64,000 nucleotides of DNA from Sphingorhabdus contaminans (lineage in GTDB: Bacteria > Pseudomonadota > Alphaproteobacteria > Sphingomonadales > Sphingomonadaceae), in contig NZ_VKKU01000001.1 in NCBI RefSeq assembly GCF_007280415.1, forward strand, positions 806,001-870,000, given 5' to 3'. This document shows, piece by piece, positions 29,539 through 39,077 of the stretch; position 1 is the first letter of the stretch; each line of letters begins with the position of its first letter. A program made the translations under genes and the position numbers. Under the pieces are notes generated by a model, which ran no database searches, was not told the DNA's origin, and was given only the letters and a program-made list of their open reading frames with translations.

Positions 29539-31182
29539 ATGACTACCCCAAAGAATGAGTTACTTTTCCTCGCGCTGGGCGGGTCGAACGAGATTGGCAT
29601 GAACGTCAATCTTTACGGCTGCCAGGGCAAATGGGTCATGGTGGATCTCGGACTGACATTCGCGAATGCCGAATATCCCGGGGTCGAATTGATCCTGCCG
29701 GATTTGGAATTTATCGAACAGCGCAAGGATGACCTGCTGGGTATCGTGCTGACCCATGGTCATGAGGATCATATCGGCGCGGTCGCCTATTTCGCCGCTG
29801 ATCTTGGCGTGCCACTCTATGCGACACCTTTTACAGCGACCCTGATACGCGGAAAGCTGGAAGAAGAAGGCATTGCCGATAGCGTCGAGCTGAACATTAT
29901 TCCGATGGAGGGGCGCTTTGATCTGGGGCCATTCGGTTTCCAGCTCGTGACGCTTGCCCACTCTATTCTTGAAATGAGCGCCTGCCTTATCTCAACCCCC
30001 TATGGCAAGATTTTCCACACCGGTGACTGGAAGCTGGATGAACGTCCCGTAATCGGCTCACCATCTACGGCCGAGCAGTTAAAGGCTATAGGCGATGAGG
30101 GCGTGCTGGCTCTGGTGTGTGATTCCACCAACGCCTTCAATCCCGATGATAGCGGTAGCGAGGGCAGCGTGAAGGCTGACCTTCTGAAATCCGTCAAGGA
30201 AGCAAAGGGCAGGGTGCTCCTGACAACTTTCGCCTCCAATGCTGCCCGTCTGCAGACAATGGGTGAAGTCGCCCGGGAAACCGGCCGCACGCTTTGTTTT
30301 GCCGGCCGCTCGCTGCACCGGATTATCGAGGCAGCGCAGGCTAATGGCTATTTGAAAGATATGCCGAAGACGGTCGATATGGAGGCCGTAGACGGCCTTC
30401 CGCGTCATGAGGTTATGGTCGTTGCAACCGGTGGCCAGGGTGAGGCGCGGGCTGCTCTCGCACGGATTGCCGAGGGTAACCATCCGGTAAAGCTGGAGGA
30501 AGGCGATACGGTCATCTTCTCGTCAAAGCAGATCCCGGGGAACGAGATTGCAATCGGCGTCATCATGAACAAGCTTGCGGAGCGCAATATCCTGACCGTC
30601 ACCGAAAAGCAGGCGCATGTCCATGTATCTGGGCATCCCGGTCAGCCGGAGCTGGCCTTGCTGTATGACTGGATCAGACCTGACGTACTCGTGCCTGTTC
30701 ACGGTGAACGGCGGCATATGGCGGAGCAGGCGCGATTTGCTTTAGCGCACGGCGTGAAAAACGCTCTCGTTCAGTCCAATGGGGATGTGGTGCGCTTGGC
30801 ACCGGGGCAGCCGGAAATAATCGGTCAGGAACGAACAGGCCGCTTAATTCTGGATGGCGACACTATCATTTCCGCAGATGGGGCCACAATGAACGAGCGC
30901 CGCCGTTTGTCCTGGTACGGTCTGATTAGCGTTGCCTTCGCTCTCGATGAGCGTGACCATCTTCTCGGCGAGCCCCAAATCCGACTGCATGGTGTGCCCA
31001 TCGAAGAAGATCTGGAAGAATTTCTGGAAGAGGCAACGCAAGCCGCCGTAAAGGCGATTCGCGAAAATAAAGGTGATTTTGAAAAACTGAGGGAGTCAGT
31101 TCGCCTCGCCGTTCGGCGCGTTGCGACCAGTTGGACAGGCAAGAAACCAATTGTAGACGTCATGATAGTGGAAACCGCATGA
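29539..31182 (+). CDS. rnj: Ribonuclease J family protein (547 aa)
   Basis: Metallo-beta-lactamase/beta-CASP nuclease for mRNA decay and RNA 5'-end maturation. Metal motif 'THGHEDHIGA' (H73, H75, D77, H78), 'HTGDWKLDE', beta-CASP segment 'GRVLLTTFASNAARLQTMGEVARETGRTLCFAGRSLHR', and 'HVSGHPGQPEL' and 'VPVHGERRHM' in motif C. Starts 2 bp after coaX. RNase J in place of or beside RNase E is common in alphaproteobacteria. Confidence 0.94.
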   Translation: MTTPKNELLFLALGGSNEIGMNVNLYGCQGKWVMVDLGLTFANAEYPGVELILPDLEFIEQRKDDLLGIVLTHGHEDHIGAVAYFAADLGVPLYATPFTATLIRGKLEEEGIADSVELNIIPMEGRFDLGPFGFQLVTLAHSILEMSACLISTPYGKIFHTGDWKLDERPVIGSPSTAEQLKAIGDEGVLALVCDSTNAFNPDDSGSEGSVKADLLKSVKEAKGRVLLTTFASNAARLQTMGEVARETGRTLCFAGRSLHRIIEAAQANGYLKDMPKTVDMEAVDGLPRHEVMVVATGGQGEARAALARIAEGNHPVKLEEGDTVIFSSKQIPGNEIAIGVIMNKLAERNILTVTEKQAHVHVSGHPGQPELALLYDWIRPDVLVPVHGERRHMAEQARFALAHGVKNALVQSNGDVVRLAPGQPEIIGQERTGRLILDGDTIISADGATMNERRRLSWYGLISVAFALDERDHLLGEPQIRLHGVPIEEDLEEFLEEATQAAVKAIRENKGDFEKLRESVRLAVRRVATSWTGKKPIVDVMIVETA

Positions 31183-31457
31183 ACTGGACATCAATTATCG
31201 CGATTTACGTGCTGTTCTGGGTCCTTTGCGCCTTTGTCATTTTGCCCATCGGCGTAAAGACACATGAAGAACTGGGGCTAGAGAAAACGCTTGGTCAAGC
31301 CGATAGCGCGCCAGGTAACTTTCGGCCCGGAATCATCATATTGCGGACGACATTGCTGTCTGCTGCATTATTCGGACTCTATTATGTCAACTACACCCAA
31401 GGGTGGATCGACCGGCACAGCTTCGATTTTCTGGTGACGCCACCAACGTCCAATTAG
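31179..31457 (+). CDS. DUF1467 small membrane protein (92 aa)
   Basis: ATGA overlap with the RNase J stop sets the start at 31179. Two helices (about 4-25 and 55-76) with the conserved 'VLPIGVKTHEE'-like turn after helix 1 (here ILPIGVKTHEELGLE) and 'GNFRPGIIILRTTLLS' before helix 2 fit the alphaproteobacterial DUF1467 family. Function unknown. Its end overlaps the convergent coiled-coil gene by 4 bp. Confidence 0.8.
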   Translation: MNWTSIIAIYVLFWVLCAFVILPIGVKTHEELGLEKTLGQADSAPGNFRPGIIILRTTLLSAALFGLYYVNYTQGWIDRHSFDFLVTPPTSN

Positions 31458-33766
31458 TTGCGCAGACGCTCAATCGCCTGCGCCAGCGCGACGTACAATT
31501 TGCCGACGTCGGAAGAGAGCAGCGTAACGCATATTGCGTTGCCGTCCCGCGTGGACAGAAGAACCCGCATCATCGCTTCGAAATCGTGGATGTAGCGGTT
31601 TACATGCTCCCGGAATTCGGGATCCTGCGCGTAATGCGTCGCGATTGCGCGGGACTCTCCTGCATCGAGCAGGCGTACAGCACGGCGGGTGAAGACGCCG
31701 CGGTCGCCTTTCAAATAGGCGGCCCAGGCTGTGTCGGTGACTTCGTTCGACAGAATCTTTGCCACATCGATCGACGTTGAATTCAAAGATTCGGTGAGCA
31801 GGACCATGCGCCGTGCAAAGCTGTCGTCGTCGATGCCGTCGAAGCTGTTCCGGCTTTCGGCGATCCGCTTTTCGAGATTGTCGGCGAGTTCGTCCAACTC
31901 CTTCAATTGGTTCTTTAACTGCGCAGTAGAATTTTCGGACAGGCTGATATTCCGTTCGATCGCATTCTGGACCTGTTCGTTCATTGCCTTTAGCTGGTTC
32001 TCGACGGCACCTTCCAAGGCCAGCCGGTTCTGGTCGGCAAGCCGGTCTGCAACATGCGTCAATTCGTCCTCAACAATTTTCCGGCTGTCCTGAACGGCGC
32101 CTTCGGTAACTTCACGAACACGCAAAAGGGACGATACAAGCGCGCCTTCGGTCACGTGCGTAATTGATTCAATCAATGCGCGGGTTTCATTCAAAGTTGC
32201 GGACAAGGCATCGGCCTGCTCATGGCGCGCGGCGAAATGTTCGTCGCTATCCGTCATGATCTTGTCGATCTTGGCGCTTTGCTCGTCAATCAACGCGCTA
32301 AGCGACGACGCAACCTTCAGCAATTCGGCGCTTTGTGCGTTCAGGTCGCGGGCATTCACGGTCGCAGCCGATAGCTGTTGTGCTGTGCCCGAAATCTGTG
32401 AGTCGATCTGGCCAATGGATGCCGGGATATTTTCGGCAATCTCGCCATTGATCCTGTTGAGAGCAGCCAAAAGTCCGTCCGCTTTCTCAAGCAATTGCTC
32501 TGTCCGGTTATGGCTTCCATCCAGTTCGGTGTTCACATCCTTCGCACTCACGCCCAGTGCGGACACAGCAAAGGCAAGCTTCGCTGTCTGGTCGGTTGCT
32601 GCCTTGTCTATCTCGGAAATTGTGGCAGCACTGGCGCTCAAATGGTTCTCTATGTCGGCAATGATCGACGCAATGCGGCTCTTTTCCTCCTGCGATTGCA
32701 AGGCGATTTCGCCCATGGCCTGTTTCAGAAGGCCAACATTTTCTTCAATTTTCGCCCGATTATCGGAAAGAAGCTGACTCAGCTCTGATGTCACATTGCC
32801 GACCTGCGAGGACATATTCTGGGCCGCTACGTCCAGCAGTTTCGCGGCTGCCGCTGCACGCTTCTCGGCGAGCAAGCTCGCCTCGTTCAACGAATCTGCG
32901 GTTTCACGCGAAATGCTGCCCAGTTGTTCCGACACCGCCTCGGCACGGCTTCCGACTTCGTCGATATAGGTGCGGGTCGAGGTGCCGACTTCGCCAATGC
33001 GCGCAAGACCGGCAATCAGCGACTTGATCTGCAGCTGCGCGTTGTTTCCGGCGCTGCCGATCTGGTTGGTCACATCCTTGGCTGCGCTTGTCACAACAGG
33101 CAGATGCTTGCGCAATTGCTCAAGATTGCTGGTCGCGGCATTGCTGACGGTCTCGAGCGTCTTTGCCTTTTCGTCGCTATCGATCAACGCGGCTGTCAGA
33201 ACCTGTGCAGCTTCCATTAAATGTTGCGATGATTGCTTGCCTACCGTTTCCAGTTCGCGTGCATTCTCTGCGAGAAAGCTGCGTGCCATCGATATTTCTT
33301 CGTTGACCGTGCGCATTCTGGCTTCAAGCGCTTCGCTTTCTTTGCGCAAAGACAGAGCTACATCACGAAAACGCAAGGCTTCTGCGCGAGAGGAACGCAT
33401 GGCGAGCAGCCACAATATGGCCAAAAACATCGCGGGCGTTGCCCAGATGCTGATTAATGTGATCAGATATTCGCCCTTAAGCCCGTCCTTGATGAGCGGC
33501 AGATAGGTCCAGATAAAATATCCGGTCCAGCCTAGCGTCAGCATGACGATGATGACCGGCGTTATGTAGCTTTTCCACTTGCCCGAAGTGGCAGACGAAT
33601 CCTCGTCGGTATAGTCGGACTCGGCGTAGTCAAACACTTCGGTCTCGGCCGTGAACTGTTCAACACCGGCGTCCAGATCGTGATCCCGGATATGGTTGTC
33701 CATATCCTCAACCGAGCCGTTTTCTATATGCCGTGTCAGGCCAACAATTTTCGAGCGTGCAGTCAT
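31454..33766 (-). CDS. Large two-TM coiled-coil protein (770 aa), possible polarity/scaffold factor
   Basis: Acidic cytoplasmic N-terminus (1-62), two membrane helices (about 67-90 and 100-123), then roughly 520 residues of almost unbroken heptad-patterned coiled coil rich in Ala, Gln, Ser and Glu, and a compact C-terminal domain (about 645-770, 'EVTDTAWAAYLKGDRGVFTRRAVRLLDAGES'). No enzymatic motif. The layout (two N-terminal TM helices plus a long cytosolic coiled coil) is that of Caulobacter TipN, a polarity marker, and also of chemoreceptor-like proteins, but no HAMP or MA signature is seen. I cannot claim homology. It faces away from the plus-strand HPt-like cluster and shares its upstream region. 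Confidence 0.85.
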   Translation of the reverse strand: MTARSKIVGLTRHIENGSVEDMDNHIRDHDLDAGVEQFTAETEVFDYAESDYTDEDSSATSGKWKSYITPVIIVMLTLGWTGYFIWTYLPLIKDGLKGEYLITLISIWATPAMFLAILWLLAMRSSRAEALRFRDVALSLRKESEALEARMRTVNEEISMARSFLAENARELETVGKQSSQHLMEAAQVLTAALIDSDEKAKTLETVSNAATSNLEQLRKHLPVVTSAAKDVTNQIGSAGNNAQLQIKSLIAGLARIGEVGTSTRTYIDEVGSRAEAVSEQLGSISRETADSLNEASLLAEKRAAAAAKLLDVAAQNMSSQVGNVTSELSQLLSDNRAKIEENVGLLKQAMGEIALQSQEEKSRIASIIADIENHLSASAATISEIDKAATDQTAKLAFAVSALGVSAKDVNTELDGSHNRTEQLLEKADGLLAALNRINGEIAENIPASIGQIDSQISGTAQQLSAATVNARDLNAQSAELLKVASSLSALIDEQSAKIDKIMTDSDEHFAARHEQADALSATLNETRALIESITHVTEGALVSSLLRVREVTEGAVQDSRKIVEDELTHVADRLADQNRLALEGAVENQLKAMNEQVQNAIERNISLSENSTAQLKNQLKELDELADNLEKRIAESRNSFDGIDDDSFARRMVLLTESLNSTSIDVAKILSNEVTDTAWAAYLKGDRGVFTRRAVRLLDAGESRAIATHYAQDPEFREHVNRYIHDFEAMMRVLLSTRDGNAICVTLLSSDVGKLYVALAQAIERLRN

Positions 33767-33775
33767 AGCACTTTG

Positions 33776-33790
33776 TTAACCATATTTTAT
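33776..33790. promoter_or_regulatory. CtrA-like site in a divergent promoter region
   Basis: TTAACCATATTTTAT (TTAA-N7-TTAT) lies between the divergent coiled-coil and HPt-like genes. It differs by one base from the alphaproteobacterial CtrA motif TTAA-N7-TTAA and contains the common TTAACCAT half. Position between genes that look related to polarity and phosphorelay makes it plausible. Confidence 0.35.
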
Positions 33791-33843
33791 CCACAGGGGA
33801 AACGCAAACTTAACACTAAATGGCGTATGCATGTGGAATGTCT

Positions 33844-34149
33844 ATGGATTATGGCTCTTTTGACACAGCGATAAAGGCTGCTTCGGGCGAAGATTACGCC
33901 CTGATGGCCGAATTGCGCCATTCTTTCGTCGAAAGTGCACGTCGCCAGCTAAGCTTGCTGTCCCGGTCACGTTGTGACGCCAATTGGCAGTATACAAGCT
34001 GGCGATTAAAGGGACTCGCCGCAAGTTTTGGCGCGACCCGCCTTATGGAATTGGCGGATATGGCAAGTGTAGGCGCGCCAGGAGACCCTGTGGTTATTCG
34101 CGATATTGAGGCCGCAATCCTTGAAATAGAGGCGCACGAAATCAGTTAG
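33844..34149 (+). CDS. HPt-like protein lacking the phospho-acceptor histidine (101 aa)
   Basis: A short all-helical protein. The segment 'YTSWRLKGLAASFGATRLMELADMA' aligns with the HPt signature 'AHxLKGxAxxxGA..L', but the histidine position is Trp53, so it cannot carry the phosphoryl group in the usual way. The N-terminus (FDTAIKAASGEDYALMAELRHSFVESARRQLSLL) matches the first HPt helices. I prefer ATG 33844, with GTGGA about 7 bases upstream, over in-frame ATGs at 33820 and 33838. It probably binds receiver or kinase partners as a non-catalytic adaptor. Confidence 0.75.
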   Translation: MDYGSFDTAIKAASGEDYALMAELRHSFVESARRQLSLLSRSRCDANWQYTSWRLKGLAASFGATRLMELADMASVGAPGDPVVIRDIEAAILEIEAHEIS

Positions 34150-34208
34150 AGACCGATTTCGGCCAATAAAAGTGTTGGAAATGAGGTAATATCGTCCATA
34201 TCGGGCGC

Positions 34209-35429
34209 ATGTTATCCGTCGAGAATGTTCAAGAACCACCTGCGGCGCTTCTCTCGGTTGTTTCGACAGCCGATGCGCCCCACTTTCCCGGCCCTGCGTC
34301 TTCGCCGCTGACGATAGCGGGACAGTCTGTTCTCGAATGGCAATTACGGGCGTTGCAAAAGTCGGGAATCACGACCTGTTTTATCGAAGTCGACAATGTT
34401 TCCGGCGCCTTGCTCAAATTGTCTGATGCGGGTGAACACTACGGGTTGAAGATCCATTTTGTGCGGACGTTGGAAGATCTTCAAAACTCTGCCGACTTAA
34501 AATCCCGTCTCGTCATTTTGGCAGAGGGGCAGTATTTCGCCGAAGATGTTGTGCATCGCCTGATAGGGGCAGGGACGCCCTGCGTCGCCACCTGTGAAAT
34601 TGGAAACGAGAGTGCCGCATTTGAACGCATAGATTTAACCCGTTGCTGGGCCGGATTTACCTTGCTGGATACAGAAAAGCTGGGCTCGATTCAGGATATT
34701 CCGGAAGGCTGGAGTATTGCATCGACCTTGCTGCGGTTTGCGATCCAGATTGGCACGCCGTTCCATCCTTTGCCGCAAACCATTATTCAAAATGCTGAAA
34801 TAGCAAAGATTTCGGTTCCCGCGGACGCTGCGGCGATCGGTCAGAAAAAGATGCAGGCACGGGTCGATGGCGTTAAGGGGTGGATAGAACGAAATATATT
34901 CGGCGCAATCGCGGAACGCCTCGCCCCGGTGGCTTGGTCGCATGAAGGCCATGCGAAATATGCGCAACTGCCGCCGGCGCTGGCCCTTATTCTGAGCCTC
35001 GCTTTAACAGCGATGAACCAACCCATCTTTGCGTTGTTGTTCCTTTTTCTCGGAATGATGTCCAACCAGATCCAGGCATTAATTGATGTGAAGTCGCCTG
35101 CACGCCGCAGCCGGGCGCATGTTGCGATTTTCTGGGTTATTTCAGCGATATCGGTCCTGTACATTGCTATTGACCAGTCCGATGTTGCCTCAAATACGGT
35201 GGAGTTCACCGTCATCATGCTGGCATTGGTGGCATTGGCCTCCAAAATTCCCGCGACGCGCTGGACATCGAACTTATTATGCTCGCCCGCATTGCTTGTT
35301 CTCGCGTTGTGCGCTTCTGCCTATTTTTCGGGTTATGCATTCGGCCTAAAAATTATTGTTTTTGCGCAACTTGCGCTTCTTCTGACGGAACAGTATCTTG
35401 CCAGGCGCGGGGTTGGTGCTCAGAAATAG
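34209..35429 (+). CDS. Degenerate nucleotidyltransferase plus membrane domain protein (406 aa)
   Basis: Residues 13-200 look like a sugar-nucleotidyltransferase fold ('PLTIAGQSVLEWQLRALQKSGI', then beta strands), but the Gly-rich nucleotide loop and the catalytic Asp are not recognisable ('VVSTADAPHFPGPASS', 'VILAEGQYF'). Residues 219-300 recall CDP-alcohol phosphotransferases ('DGVKGWIERNIFGAIAERLAPVAW') without the DG-x2-AR-x8-G-x3-D-x3-D signature. About five membrane helices follow. The architecture resembles bifunctional IPC transferase/DIPP synthase enzymes with both active sites lost. Inner membrane; function unknown. 59 bp after the HPt-like gene. Confidence 0.7.
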   Translation: MLSVENVQEPPAALLSVVSTADAPHFPGPASSPLTIAGQSVLEWQLRALQKSGITTCFIEVDNVSGALLKLSDAGEHYGLKIHFVRTLEDLQNSADLKSRLVILAEGQYFAEDVVHRLIGAGTPCVATCEIGNESAAFERIDLTRCWAGFTLLDTEKLGSIQDIPEGWSIASTLLRFAIQIGTPFHPLPQTIIQNAEIAKISVPADAAAIGQKKMQARVDGVKGWIERNIFGAIAERLAPVAWSHEGHAKYAQLPPALALILSLALTAMNQPIFALLFLFLGMMSNQIQALIDVKSPARRSRAHVAIFWVISAISVLYIAIDQSDVASNTVEFTVIMLALVALASKIPATRWTSNLLCSPALLVLALCASAYFSGYAFGLKIIVFAQLALLLTEQYLARRGVGAQK

Positions 35430-35479
35430 CCTTAAAGCCGTGTAAACCTTTTTTTGTTAGGCTAATCGCTGTTCTCAGC

Positions 35480-36451
35480 ATGGAATTTCCGTTGGATCAC
35501 GGTGTCGACGATAATAATGTTTTGATGAAAGTCGGCGCCGAGCATGCGCACGATATCGATGCGCTGTGCACGGATATCGCTTCGGTCATTTTCCCGTCGG
35601 CCATCAACCCGCCAACCGAAGCCATGATAAGTGCGGTATCGGCAAAGCTTATCCAACTCGTTTCCGATCTTGAAGCGCGGCTTCTTTCGAAAAGAAACCC
35701 CCATTTCCCGCTAACTTGGGAAACATTGTCGAAATCGGGATTTCTGCGTGAACCCGACCTGATCGACTTTGCACTGGCGCGCGTGGCAGAAGACCGGCTT
35801 GGCTCTTGCATTGCTCAGGACAAGGTGAAGTCCGCTTCGGCCTATCTGGACCATCAGAACGGGACGCTGGCCGATGCGGCGCAGACATTGTTGGCTGCGG
35901 AAAGTCTGCACCGTAGCGGTGCTGGCAGCACCTATTTGGGGCTGACTTCCGAACTGCTGTACAAGCTAACATGGCAGATTGTTGCCGCCATCGAGATATG
36001 TGAAGGCGCCCGCCAGCCTGAGGTAATCGCGGCGGCGAAGTCCCTTTTATCCAGTTTCTGTGAAGCCGATCGCGCCCAGGATGCGGCACGGAAAATCGTC
36101 CACTTTTCCGATGATCCAACACAGACATTGGTCGGTAATCCCGAGATTTACGGGCTGCATTTGCATGTGGCGGCGTTATCGGCCGATCTTGAGCTTGACC
36201 ACGACCATATCTTGCGGCTGATCGATGCATCTTCTTCGGCACCTTATGCCGTCATGCTGGCGGCGTGCGGAGTATCCAAGACACATGCACTCAAGAATAT
36301 CTTCCTGTTTCGCGGTGATCTGATTACCCCGAGAGAAGCAGGCATTTTCGAGTCCGGATATGCAAGCATATCGCCCGATGAAGCGCTTGTCCAAATCGGT
36401 TATTGGGCATCTGCGCGGGCGCAGTTCCTTTCCGGCGGTAAACTGCCATGA
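35480..36451 (+). CDS. Helical protein of unknown function upstream of a kinase-like gene (323 aa)
   Basis: Start chosen at ATG 35480 (MEFPLDHGVDD); the frame is open further upstream but runs into the previous gene. No signal peptide or membrane helix. It is a string of amphipathic helices with Ala/Leu-rich repeats ('TLADAAQTLLAAESLHRSG', 'VIAAAKSLLSSFCEADRAQDAARKIV', 'LELDHDHILRLIDASSSAPYAVMLAACG'), loosely like the HEAT-like alphaproteobacterial DUF2336 group. I do not recognise it with certainty. Its stop overlaps the kinase-like gene by 4 bp (ATGA), so the two are co-translated and likely act together. Confidence 0.75.
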   Translation: MEFPLDHGVDDNNVLMKVGAEHAHDIDALCTDIASVIFPSAINPPTEAMISAVSAKLIQLVSDLEARLLSKRNPHFPLTWETLSKSGFLREPDLIDFALARVAEDRLGSCIAQDKVKSASAYLDHQNGTLADAAQTLLAAESLHRSGAGSTYLGLTSELLYKLTWQIVAAIEICEGARQPEVIAAAKSLLSSFCEADRAQDAARKIVHFSDDPTQTLVGNPEIYGLHLHVAALSADLELDHDHILRLIDASSSAPYAVMLAACGVSKTHALKNIFLFRGDLITPREAGIFESGYASISPDEALVQIGYWASARAQFLSGGKLP

Positions 36452-37779
36452 CCGGAACACAACTTCTCAACCCCATTTCGGGTGAAGTGGATGCCGATGG
36501 CCGTCTTGTTTCCGCCGATGATGCGCTCGCGCGGCTCCATGAACGCGCTGGCGGCCGCAAGGACGAATTGCTGGCGGTTCCGGCTATCAAAACCTTGGCG
36601 TTGCTATCGATTAAACTTCAGATGAAGCTATCACGCGCCGTTCGGGTCGCCGATGATAACGAAAATCTCGAGCTGTGGATCGAAATCGATCCAACACCCG
36701 ACAAAGCAAAATTATCAATCATCAGCTGGCGCGTCCTGCCCGATGTCAGGCGTGCGGGATATGCCGATAATCCGGTTCAAATTGCGCATGATAATGTGAT
36801 GAAATTTGACCCGGTCGGCCGTTTGGTCCGGGCCACCGGCGATGCCGCCCACGGATTGGTCCCGCCCGACTTTGGCCGGGATGGCAGAGCACTTCTTGCA
36901 ACCTTGTTTGAGGCTGGCGAGGGCTTGGATATGCTGCTTTCGTCGTTGTCTGCGCGAAAAGCGACATCGGCATGTACTTTGAAGCGGATAAGTGATGCAG
37001 GGCTTTTCCATGTCCGCGGGCGGTCTGTTGCCAATGGCTATGAACTTTTGTTCGAACGGTTGGAAACACCCGGCCATCCGGCCGAACCACCGAAAGAAAG
37101 CCCGGCTGCAGGCGCTTTGTTCGGGAAAAATCTCGCCCCTGTTTTGCGGCAACCCTTGGGCCGTATCATTGCCAATGCGGAGACAATTGGAAGTGAGTTG
37201 CAGGGGCCGATCCGCGAAAATTACGCGCTCTATGCACGCGATATCGCCAATGCGGCCCGCCATTTGTCCGCTTTGGTCGATGATCTGGGCGATCTGGAAG
37301 CTGTGGAACGTCCTGACTTCAAGGCGGCAAGGGACAATATCGAACTGGGCGATGTTGCGAGGCGCGTAGCGGGCCTTCTTGCGTTGAAAGCGGCCGACCA
37401 CCGCATAACGGTTCATACGCCTTCCGAGGACATATTGGTGCCCGCCGTGGCGGAGTTTCGCCGCACCCTCCAGATAATTCTAAACCTGGTCAACAATGCC
37501 ATCCGCTACTCACCCGACGGCACGCATATTTTTATAGATATCGCGACAGTCGATTCCGAAGCCGTCATTACGGTGCGGGACCAGGGGAAGGGCATTGACC
37601 CTGCAGACCAGGAAAAGATTTTTGAAAAGTTCGAACGTCTTGGACGTTCAGGCGATGGAGGTAGCGGCCTTGGCCTTTACATTTCCCGCCGTCTTGCCCG
37701 TGCTATGGGCGGAGAGTTACACGTCGAAAACGCGGAAGACGGAGGGGCAGTTTTCACCCTCCGCCTTCCCAATAACTGA
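36448..37779 (+). CDS. Histidine-kinase-like protein without the H-box histidine (443 aa)
   Basis: C-terminal HATPase domain is intact: N-box 'NLVNNAIRY' (346-354), G1 'DQGKGI' (378-383), F-box 'IFEKFERLG' (391-399), G2 'GGSGLGLYISRRLA' (404-417). The preceding dimerisation helix reads 'LAPVLRQPLGRIIANAETIG'; compared with the H-box 'SHELRTPL' the histidine is Pro231. It therefore should not autophosphorylate by the standard route, like the Tyr-bearing DivL of Caulobacter. The N-terminus (1-215) is soluble, with a PAS-like part around 150-205, and no TM helix. Coupled to the helical protein upstream. Confidence 0.8.
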   Translation: MTGTQLLNPISGEVDADGRLVSADDALARLHERAGGRKDELLAVPAIKTLALLSIKLQMKLSRAVRVADDNENLELWIEIDPTPDKAKLSIISWRVLPDVRRAGYADNPVQIAHDNVMKFDPVGRLVRATGDAAHGLVPPDFGRDGRALLATLFEAGEGLDMLLSSLSARKATSACTLKRISDAGLFHVRGRSVANGYELLFERLETPGHPAEPPKESPAAGALFGKNLAPVLRQPLGRIIANAETIGSELQGPIRENYALYARDIANAARHLSALVDDLGDLEAVERPDFKAARDNIELGDVARRVAGLLALKAADHRITVHTPSEDILVPAVAEFRRTLQIILNLVNNAIRYSPDGTHIFIDIATVDSEAVITVRDQGKGIDPADQEKIFEKFERLGRSGDGGSGLGLYISRRLARAMGGELHVENAEDGGAVFTLRLPNN

Positions 37780-37790
37780 ACGAGCCGCGA

Positions 37791-39077
37791 TTAACGCTGA
37801 TCGAGGCTGGGGTAGGGCCGGTGCTTCGGTCCGGTGTAAAGTTGACGCGGGCGGCCGATTTTCTGGCCGGGATCCGAAATCATTTCGTTCCATTGCGCTA
37901 CCCAACCTACGGTACGGGACAGGGCAAACAATACGGTGAACATTTCGGTCGGGAAGCCGATGGCCGACAAAATGATACCTGAATAGAAGTCAACGTTGGG
38001 GAAGAGCTTCTTTTCAATGAAATAAGGATCGTTCAGCGCCATATCCTCCAACTGGAGGGCAACGTCGAAAATGGGGTCGTTGACCTTCAGTTCGCTCAGA
38101 ACTTCACGGACGGTTTTCTGCATAACCGTGGCGCGTGGGTCGTAATTTTTATAAACACGGTGGCCGAAGCCCATCAGGCGGAAAGGATCGTTCTTGTCCT
38201 TTGCACGCTCGATATAGTGCGGAATTTTATCGGGTGTGCCGATTTCCCGAAGCATGTTGAGTGCCGCTTCATTGGCACCGCCATGGGCCGGACCCCACAA
38301 GCAAGCGATGCCTGCCGCGATACATGCAAAGGGATTGGCACCCGACGAACCGGCAAGGCGTACTGTCGATGTCGATGCATTTTGCTCGTGATCCGCATGC
38401 AGGATAAAAATGCGATCCATCGCCCGTTCGATTACGGGGTTAACGACATAGGGTTCGGCGGGCACGCCGAAGGTCATGCGCAGGAAGTTGCCGGTGTAGG
38501 ACAGGCTGTTGTCCGGATACAGGAAAGGCTGACCGATTGAATATTTGTAGGCCATTGCTGCAATGGTCGGCATCTTTGCAATCAGCCTGTGGCTGGAAAT
38601 CATGCGATGGGTCGGATCGCTGATATCGGTGGAGTCATGGTAAAATGCCGACAGGGCACCAACGACGCCGCACATGATTGCCATGGGATGCGCATCCCGG
38701 CGGAAACCGCGGTAAAAAGTGGCCAGTTGTTCGTGCAACATGGTGTGTCGCGAAATCGTCTGGCTGAATTCGGCCAATTGGGTTTTGGATGGCAATTCGC
38801 CGTTCAAAAGCAAATAGGACACTTCCATAAAGCTCGATTTTTCAGAGAGCTCTTCAATGGAATAGCCACGGTGCAACAGGATCCCTTCATCACCGTCAAT
38901 GAAGGTCAGGGCCGACTCGCAACTGGCGGTGGAAGTAAAGCCCGGATCGAATGTGAAATGGTCGGATGCGCCATAAAGTTTACGGATATCCAAAACATCG
39001 GGACCTTCATTGCCCTTCATGATTGGCAAATCGTAGCTGGTATCTCCGATTGTCAGCGTTGCATTATTTTCTGCCAT
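37791..39077 (-). CDS. gltA: Citrate synthase (428 aa)
   Basis: Condenses acetyl-CoA and oxaloacetate, entry to the TCA cycle. Type I bacterial form: catalytic His in '[15 protein letters not shown]', second His in '[16 protein letters not shown]', Asp in '[16 protein letters not shown]'. Normal length. GGAG lies 8 bases before the ATG. Single gene with its own promoter in the 250-bp gap to comEC; its 3' end lies 11 bp from the kinase-like gene on the other strand, with no room for a terminator between. Confidence 0.97.

Follow-up and report, generated by a model that had tools for sequence, protein, structure and literature searches.

Within a window of 64,000 nucleotides from the Sphingorhabdus genome of a freshwater bacterium (Sphingomonadaceae; C1:806001-870000), we studied a locus of five genes which encode a coiled-coil protein with two predicted transmembrane segments (CC), an HPt-like protein, a membrane protein, a helical protein (HEL) and a histidine kinase-like protein (HK). 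HK is devoid of the histidine that such enzymes phosphorylate, and a second kinase-like protein encoded elsewhere in the same genome, hereafter P1, has this histidine and a degenerate ATP-binding domain. We propose, with a probability that we put at about one half, that HK and P1 together would make up a single HisKA-type kinase split over two proteins, with HPt and HEL as accessory proteins. Our data document the reciprocal loss of motifs, the joint occurrence and decay of the genes, selection on them, and gene linkage in two further genera.

Reciprocal motif loss in HK and P1

In Pfam searches, HK matched HATPase_c at E=7.4e-29 and HisKA at E=1.3e-4, the latter under the family cut-off. The alignments of HK and HPt comprised 100 and 102 rows, and because these rows repeat some genomes, the main counts for both proteins are given for distinct sequences. 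Not one of the 85 distinct HK sequences had His at the H site, which was occupied by Pro (43), Arg (29), Ala (4), Ser (3), Asn (3), Lys (2) or Thr (1). The ATP-site residues (Asn of the N box, Asp of the G1 box, and Gly) were kept in 85/85. Tyr was found at the H site in 0/85, and the Pfam scan of HK yielded no PAS match. Identity of HK with the pseudokinase DivL was rejected because a PAS kinase that resembles DivL and has Tyr at its H-box (MSYEFRTPL), a second His-less kinase, is encoded elsewhere in the genome (L144, C1:636822-637517, +).

A search of the genome with the HK profile reached 13 places, and P1 was among them, aligned over the dimerization and histidine phosphotransfer (DHp) part only. 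P1 matched the Pfam HisKA family at E=1.6e-12, with the acceptor motif HELRTP. After removal of L259-L262 and of identical rows, 52 of 56 P1 rows were retained, and His, Glu, Arg, Thr and Pro of this motif were present in 51/51 readable ones. The positions aligned with the N box lacked Asn, and a HATPase match was missing from the Pfam results at E <= 1. The profiles of HK and P1 aligned to each other with an hhalign probability of 99.4 over 333 columns, which covered both the DHp and the catalytic and ATP-binding (CA) domains. Judged on sequence alone, HK has a competent ATP-binding domain and no acceptor His, and P1 has an acceptor His and no competent ATP-binding domain. Since retention and loss of the motifs are reciprocal, HK and P1 have between them lost the complementary parts of a single active site. 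CheA-type domains (HPt acceptor, CheA dimerization, CheW-like) were found in neither protein, as their Pfam matches belonged to the HisKA and HATPase families only. The NCBIfam models nearest to P1 were those of the kinases DivJ and PdhS, at scores far under their cut-offs, and the DivJ-PleC-DivK system is described as degenerate or lost in Sphingomonadales (PMC2877005). On these two grounds, the HK/P1 pair may be descended from the DivJ/PdhS kinase group.

The HPt-like protein has also lost its histidine. The truncated copy L077 was taken out before counting and L078 yielded none; in the 89 distinct sequences the site was never His, and held Trp (61), Leu (11), Met (6), Tyr (4), Phe (2), Gln (2), Ser (1), Val (1) or Glu (1). 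The Arg next to this site and the Trp of RCDANW were kept in 89/89. The AlphaFold model (pLDDT 88.7) showed the helical-bundle fold of HPt proteins: 31 of the best 35 Foldseek rows carried the description of an HPt protein or an HPt/CheA-P1 domain (HptB and Caulobacter ShpA were among them), with probabilities up to 1.00 and a best E of only 0.035. The Pfam Hpt family matched under its cut-off (E=0.023), and a PDB profile search gave chance-level matches only. A relation of HPt to the DHp domain of HK or P1 was looked for by profile alignment, and none was seen.

The initial annotation of this locus had noticed Trp in place of His in the HPt-like protein and Pro in place of the H-box His in the kinase-like protein, and both are found (Table 1). 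What is conserved at the two sites is the absence of His, while the Trp and the Pro themselves vary. Decay in a single lineage, the objection raised with that annotation, can be set aside, as no orthologue with His at either site was detected among the distinct sequences. As far as the alignments tell, both histidine losses are ancient.

Co-inheritance, joint decay and selection

In the genus, 37 genomes including our own were compared. HK and P1 were both present in 25 and both absent from 11, and the remaining one (G027) had P1 in part without HK. HK was disrupted in 4 of the 25 positives (G008, G015, G023, and G030 at the C-terminus). In G030 (L082), the C-terminus of HK is apparently frameshifted past the G1 box, and HPt is intact. 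Among 249 genomes of the family, 193 had both HK and P1, 8 had HK only, 8 had P1 only and 40 had neither, which makes an agreement in 233/249 (Fisher p 3e-30, relatedness ignored). Five or six first-look candidates were scored per genome in these family searches, so that some negatives may be false, and the HK matches at E ~1e-60 to 1e-86 may include paralogues. Two genomes (G158, G240) had HPt and neither HK nor P1 at the cut-offs. Thus HK and P1 are co-inherited, G250 and perhaps G027 being exceptions, and as most lineages keep or lose the pair jointly, the two may act as one enzyme spread over two proteins.

The limits of the co-lost unit could be seen in the 12 congener loci without an HK gene. 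In all 12, CC had its full length and the membrane gene was close to it, and nothing or relics only were left of HPt, HEL and HK (G027 retains relics of all three, G021 one of HK). The initial annotation had treated the five genes as one module; since CC and the membrane gene stay in 12/12, HPt, HEL and HK can rather be lost as a block, and the CC and membrane genes do something that is retained apart from these three. In a genus tree built from six linked proteins, one node of which had 42% support, G026 keeps HK, HEL and P1 within a clade whose other members lack all three, a nesting which implies about five separate joint losses if there was no regain. We also considered that the genes might be lost in a set order, the deacetylase first, HPt next and HK last, and dropped this because G250, a congener outside the 37, lost HK and HEL and retains HPt and P1.

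Decay was caught in progress in the clade formed by G008, G015, G023 and G027. HPt is truncated or a relic in 4/4, HK carries a stop in three and is a relic in one, and P1 has stops in G015 and G023, is whole in G008 and was partly seen in G027. When G014 was compared with G008, G015 and G023, in which HPt is broken, the ratio of nonsynonymous to synonymous substitution rates (dN/dS) was 0.32-0.39 for HK, 0.40-0.57 for HPt, 0.30-0.32 for HEL and 0.15-0.20 for P1, against 0.19, 0.12, 0.13 and 0.11, respectively, for G014-G024, an intact pair from this clade. No such shift was seen there in CC (0.07-0.11), in the membrane protein (0.08-0.11) or in the neighboring gene that we take to be gltA (0.01-0.02). 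In the lineage of the window (G000 vs G031 and G019), the dN/dS of HK, HPt, HEL and P1 was 0.02-0.07, at dS of 1.0-2.2.

The neighborhood of P1 was read in 56 loci, four genomes being read twice. A TPR protein was encoded next to P1 in 50 of them; a deacetylase-like gene accompanied P1 in 36, and 3 others carry remnants of that gene. CC and HPt adjoin this TPR-P1-deacetylase cluster in five genomes, which belong to two other genera (G102, G181, G282; G104, G183); in G102, the one of the five in which the HK locus was read, HK lies elsewhere, with the membrane protein gene and gltA. The deacetylase-like gene is so named from sequence motifs only: the protein had no Pfam or NCBIfam match and a mere chance match in the PDB. 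The gene was detected in 34/61 relatives and in 20/37 genomes of the genus, all 20 of which have HK and P1. The 11 genomes with neither HK nor P1 do not have it, nor do G008, G014, G015, G023, G026 and G027. Outside the family, 14/24 genomes had the gene without P1 at the cut-off, and elsewhere in the family it is often not near P1. It is a weak candidate for the output of HK and P1.

The five-gene locus

The coordinates of the features are collected in Table 1. All five open reading frames are present and open, as the initial annotation had stated, and its suggestion of translational coupling is borne out by a 4-nt overlap of the HEL and HK genes (36448-36451). Conservation of the neighborhood across Sphingomonadaceae also holds: CC, HPt and HK were found within one 16-kb stretch in 35 of 40 loci, 2 of the 35 having a truncated HPt. 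These 40 loci, 20 of the genus and 20 of other genera, had all been picked for holding HPt or HK. When the neighborhoods of the CC gene were taken instead, the best 80 loci, some of them short, showed an HPt match of at least 100 bits in 64 and an HK match of at least 300 bits in 63, weaker matches being discarded. The module is still together in L096 and L108, whose flanking genes differ.

Table 1. Positions of the genes and substituted codons at the five-gene locus and around P1 (window positions unless a contig or locus is given)
Feature	Position	Strand	Remarks
CC, coiled-coil protein with two transmembrane segments	31454..33766	-	divergent to HPt
HPt-like helical-bundle protein without acceptor His	33838..34149	+	103 aa from conserved Met; listed open reading frame from 33820
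Trp codon at the histidine position of HPt (SWRLKG)	34000..34002	+	residue 61 of listed open reading frame; sequence and alignments
Membrane protein, degenerate nucleotidyltransferase-like N-terminus	34209..35429	+	same orientation as HPt, HEL and HK
HEL, helical protein of about 323 aa	35480..36451	+	all-alpha model
HK, kinase-like, 443 aa; DHp without phospho-acceptor His, intact HATPase_c	36448..37779	+	Pfam and alignments
Pro codon at the phosphorylatable-His position of HK (LAPVLRQPL vs usual MSHELRTPL)	37138..37140	+	sequence and alignments
P1	C1:981555-983195 (own genome)		547 codons between stops; about 112 kb past window end
Deacetylase-like gene	L308:8017-9114 (own genome)		overlaps end of P1
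Loci with CC and HPt beside the TPR-P1-deacetylase cluster	L350, L351, L352, L353, L099

The start of HPt is likely at 33838 (MSMDYG), as this Met was invariant in a 31-row alignment, and that of HEL is, from the sequence, most likely at 35480. The structural model of HEL is all-alpha (pLDDT 87.4); it had no fold match in the PDB at E <= 0.001 and HEL had no profile match. Homology of HEL to P1 was rejected (hhalign probability 0.5%). In L187, L188, L190 and L219, three of which are titled Sphingobium, a HEL match is absent between the membrane protein and HK genes.

The membrane protein has five hydrophobic stretches. It had been described as resembling a nucleotidyltransferase or CDP-alcohol transferase without the active site. 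The first likeness was recovered as a weak match to MurU (E=2.1e-4, residues 34-109), and the second gave no match in profile searches. As the one match is weak and the other lacking, a lost active site is not demonstrated for this protein. The two transmembrane segments announced for CC correspond to hydrophobic stretches at residues 68-86 and 104-122. Its C-terminal domain of about 125 aa (31454-31834, -), with an invariant GKLYVALAQAI in 12 aligned rows, had no convincing Pfam, NCBIfam or PDB match. This domain occurs in 59/61 relatives, in 37/37 genomes of the genus and in 101/289 alphaproteobacterial genomes, where the host frames range from 266 to 2752 aa.

The locus is flanked by what we take to be rnj and gltA/comEC, all named from their sequences, and, on the rnj side, by a DUF1467 gene. 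The latter (31179-31457, +) overlaps by 4 nt both the gene upstream and the convergent CC gene. The gene beside HK (37791-39077, -) is presumably that of citrate synthase (gltA). In a paper on citrate synthase in the cell-cycle control of Caulobacter, TipN is mentioned 138 times (PMC7083601), which is possibly a coincidence.

Alternative readings and comparison with known systems

In the split kinase proposed here, HK would contribute a CA domain with the key ATP residues and no acceptor His, and P1 the acceptor His with the adjacent Glu and Thr (HELRTP) and a degenerate CA domain. The related DHp domains of the two proteins would pair as a heterodimer, in which the CA domain of HK would phosphorylate the His of P1 in trans. 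P1, which has a phosphatase-type Thr four residues after the His, could then pass the phosphate to a putative response regulator or strip it from this protein. The His-less HPt would dock on a partner without carrying phosphate, as an adaptor or a brake, and HEL would be an accessory protein. In EnvZ and NtrB, a mutant without the His and a mutant without the ATP site can complement each other within a dimer. If our proposal is true, HK and P1 would be a natural case of this complementation known from mutant kinases, and the arrangement might give switch-like or bistable control. That it constitutes a family-wide natural HisKA split kinase, made of two whole proteins each missing the complementary half and regulated by a His-less HPt, perhaps at the cell surface, is a more tentative proposition, against which we would place the odds.

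Several observations weigh against the split kinase. In G008, P1 is intact beside a stopped HK and a broken HPt; in G027, HK is absent as a gene and P1, which runs off the contig end, may be whole; and in G250 the loss of HK and HEL is recent (the remnant is 95% identical to G014), with HPt and P1 kept. G026 lacks HPt and retains HK, HEL and P1. A single half was found in 16/249 family genomes at the thresholds used, 6 of these 16 being <90% complete. The P1 of G102 has Ser for the motif Thr (HELRSPL). P1 is only modestly relaxed, from 0.11 in the intact pair to 0.15-0.20, and the dN/dS values of HPt and part of those of HEL are based on 54-143 codons of damaged copies. Correlations of distance matrices (mirror-tree, run without HPt of G026, where the gene is absent) were 0.52 for HK-P1, 0.75 for P1-CC and 0.57 for HK and the membrane protein, and we count them as no evidence because nearly all pairs correlate highly and HK-P1 is not singled out. 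Also, the genus signal comes largely from streamlined genomes, which are prone to parallel loss of many genes, and controls were few: flagellin (PF00669) had a distribution other than that of HK, and the accessory kinase L141, with close orthologues in only 4/37 genomes and two more weak matches, says little. The flagellin data led us to discard a link to motility, as 11 HK-positive genomes of the genus have no flagellin and G007, G010, G020 and G021 have flagellin without HK.

ChpT and Spo0B are phosphotransferases formed of a DHp domain with an acceptor His and a degenerate CA domain, an architecture that P1 fits. P1 might thus be an enzyme of this kind, fed by a receiver domain, and HK a DivL-like allosteric pseudokinase, the two sharing a pathway without forming one enzyme. 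Co-loss would be equally expected, and HK did match the DivL structure 4q20 among 59 PDB sequences (E=3.5e-13). We nevertheless find this reading rather unlikely, as the DHp domain of P1 is that of an ordinary HisKA protein whose nearest models, though far under their cut-offs, are kinases, and as the full retention of the ATP residues in HK is seemingly more than a purely allosteric role needs. The streamlining mentioned above could also account for co-loss if HK/HEL/HPt and P1 were separate dispensable genes shed by small genomes. All 11 double negatives of the genus are indeed of 2.0-2.4 Mb and have 8-15 first-look kinase candidates, vs 22-34 in the larger G000, G019 and G031, and HK was lost separately from P1 in G250 and G027. 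Yet a by-product of this sort accommodates poorly the agreement of HK and P1 across the family, the reciprocity of the motif loss and the position of HPt, which belongs to the HK operon in most of the loci that were read and adjoins the P1 cluster in two genera, so that we hold it for very improbable.

The initial annotation favored a signaling or polarity module working by binding, in which HPt and HK would be docking platforms, incapable of carrying phosphate, around a TipN-like scaffold. Both proteins are unable to accept phosphate at the usual site, and the HPt and CC genes stay adjacent in the two genera in which the other genes have a different location. However, CC and the membrane gene persist in the loci from which HPt, HEL and HK have disappeared, and a binding-only module overlooks the kept ATP site of HK and the co-inherited P1 with the missing His. 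We consider such a module improbable. A role in polarity or the cell cycle was unsupported too, the DivL-like kinase of this genome, with Tyr in the place of His, being a different protein; taken as a whole, the earlier interpretation is partly supported.

No description of the HK, P1, HPt and HEL gene set was found in the open-licence literature, which was covered mainly by titles and the starts of abstracts. The matched pair of HisKA proteins across Sphingomonadaceae makes the idea of split kinases directly testable with two purified proteins. If the split kinase is real, two 'dead' kinases would be kept by each other, which would warn against annotation as 'inactive', and the co-lost His-less HPt suggests that HPt regulators acting by docking only may exist.

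Some likenesses to known proteins concern single members of the locus. CC shares with TipN two N-terminal hydrophobic stretches and a long coiled coil; the two were compared by architecture only, and the CC gene lies outside the co-lost unit. Among the best 80 loci kept from a scan of genome contigs, none was titled Caulobacter. DivL has a Tyr in the place of the His and PAS domains, whereas HK has neither and L144 is the DivL-like protein of this genome. What HK has in common with Caulobacter DivL is a kinase-like sequence with no acceptor His (PMC7200025).

Other likenesses concern kinases spread over two proteins. In Rhodobacter sphaeroides, the kinase domain and the phosphorylatable His are carried by two proteins, CheA3 and CheA4, the His half of which has phosphatase activity too (PMC3591291, PMC6829392). 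These are CheA-type proteins of chemotaxis in which whole domains are missing, whereas HK and P1, known here from sequences, are both of the HisKA type, with DHp and CA domains, and have lost complementary residues. In Synechocystis, Hik36 and Hik43 (PilL-N/PilL-C) likewise form a histidine kinase over two genes and are tied to aggregation and exopolysaccharide genes; unlike HK and P1, they are a split CheA homologue in a pilus chemosensory cluster (PMC7656254). Up to 1.7% of HisKA proteins have been suggested to belong to split kinases (PMC3591291), and the experimentally supported pairs that we found are CheA-type. In the SMART data of the same work, 1556 of 42417 HisKA proteins lack HATPase and are potential split kinases, 711 of them with the phosphatase motif HE/DxxN/T. 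P1, a HisKA protein with HELRT and without HATPase, is a protein of this kind, for which no partner half is named in the part of the paper cited; for P1 we propose a partner, the co-inherited ATP-side half HK.

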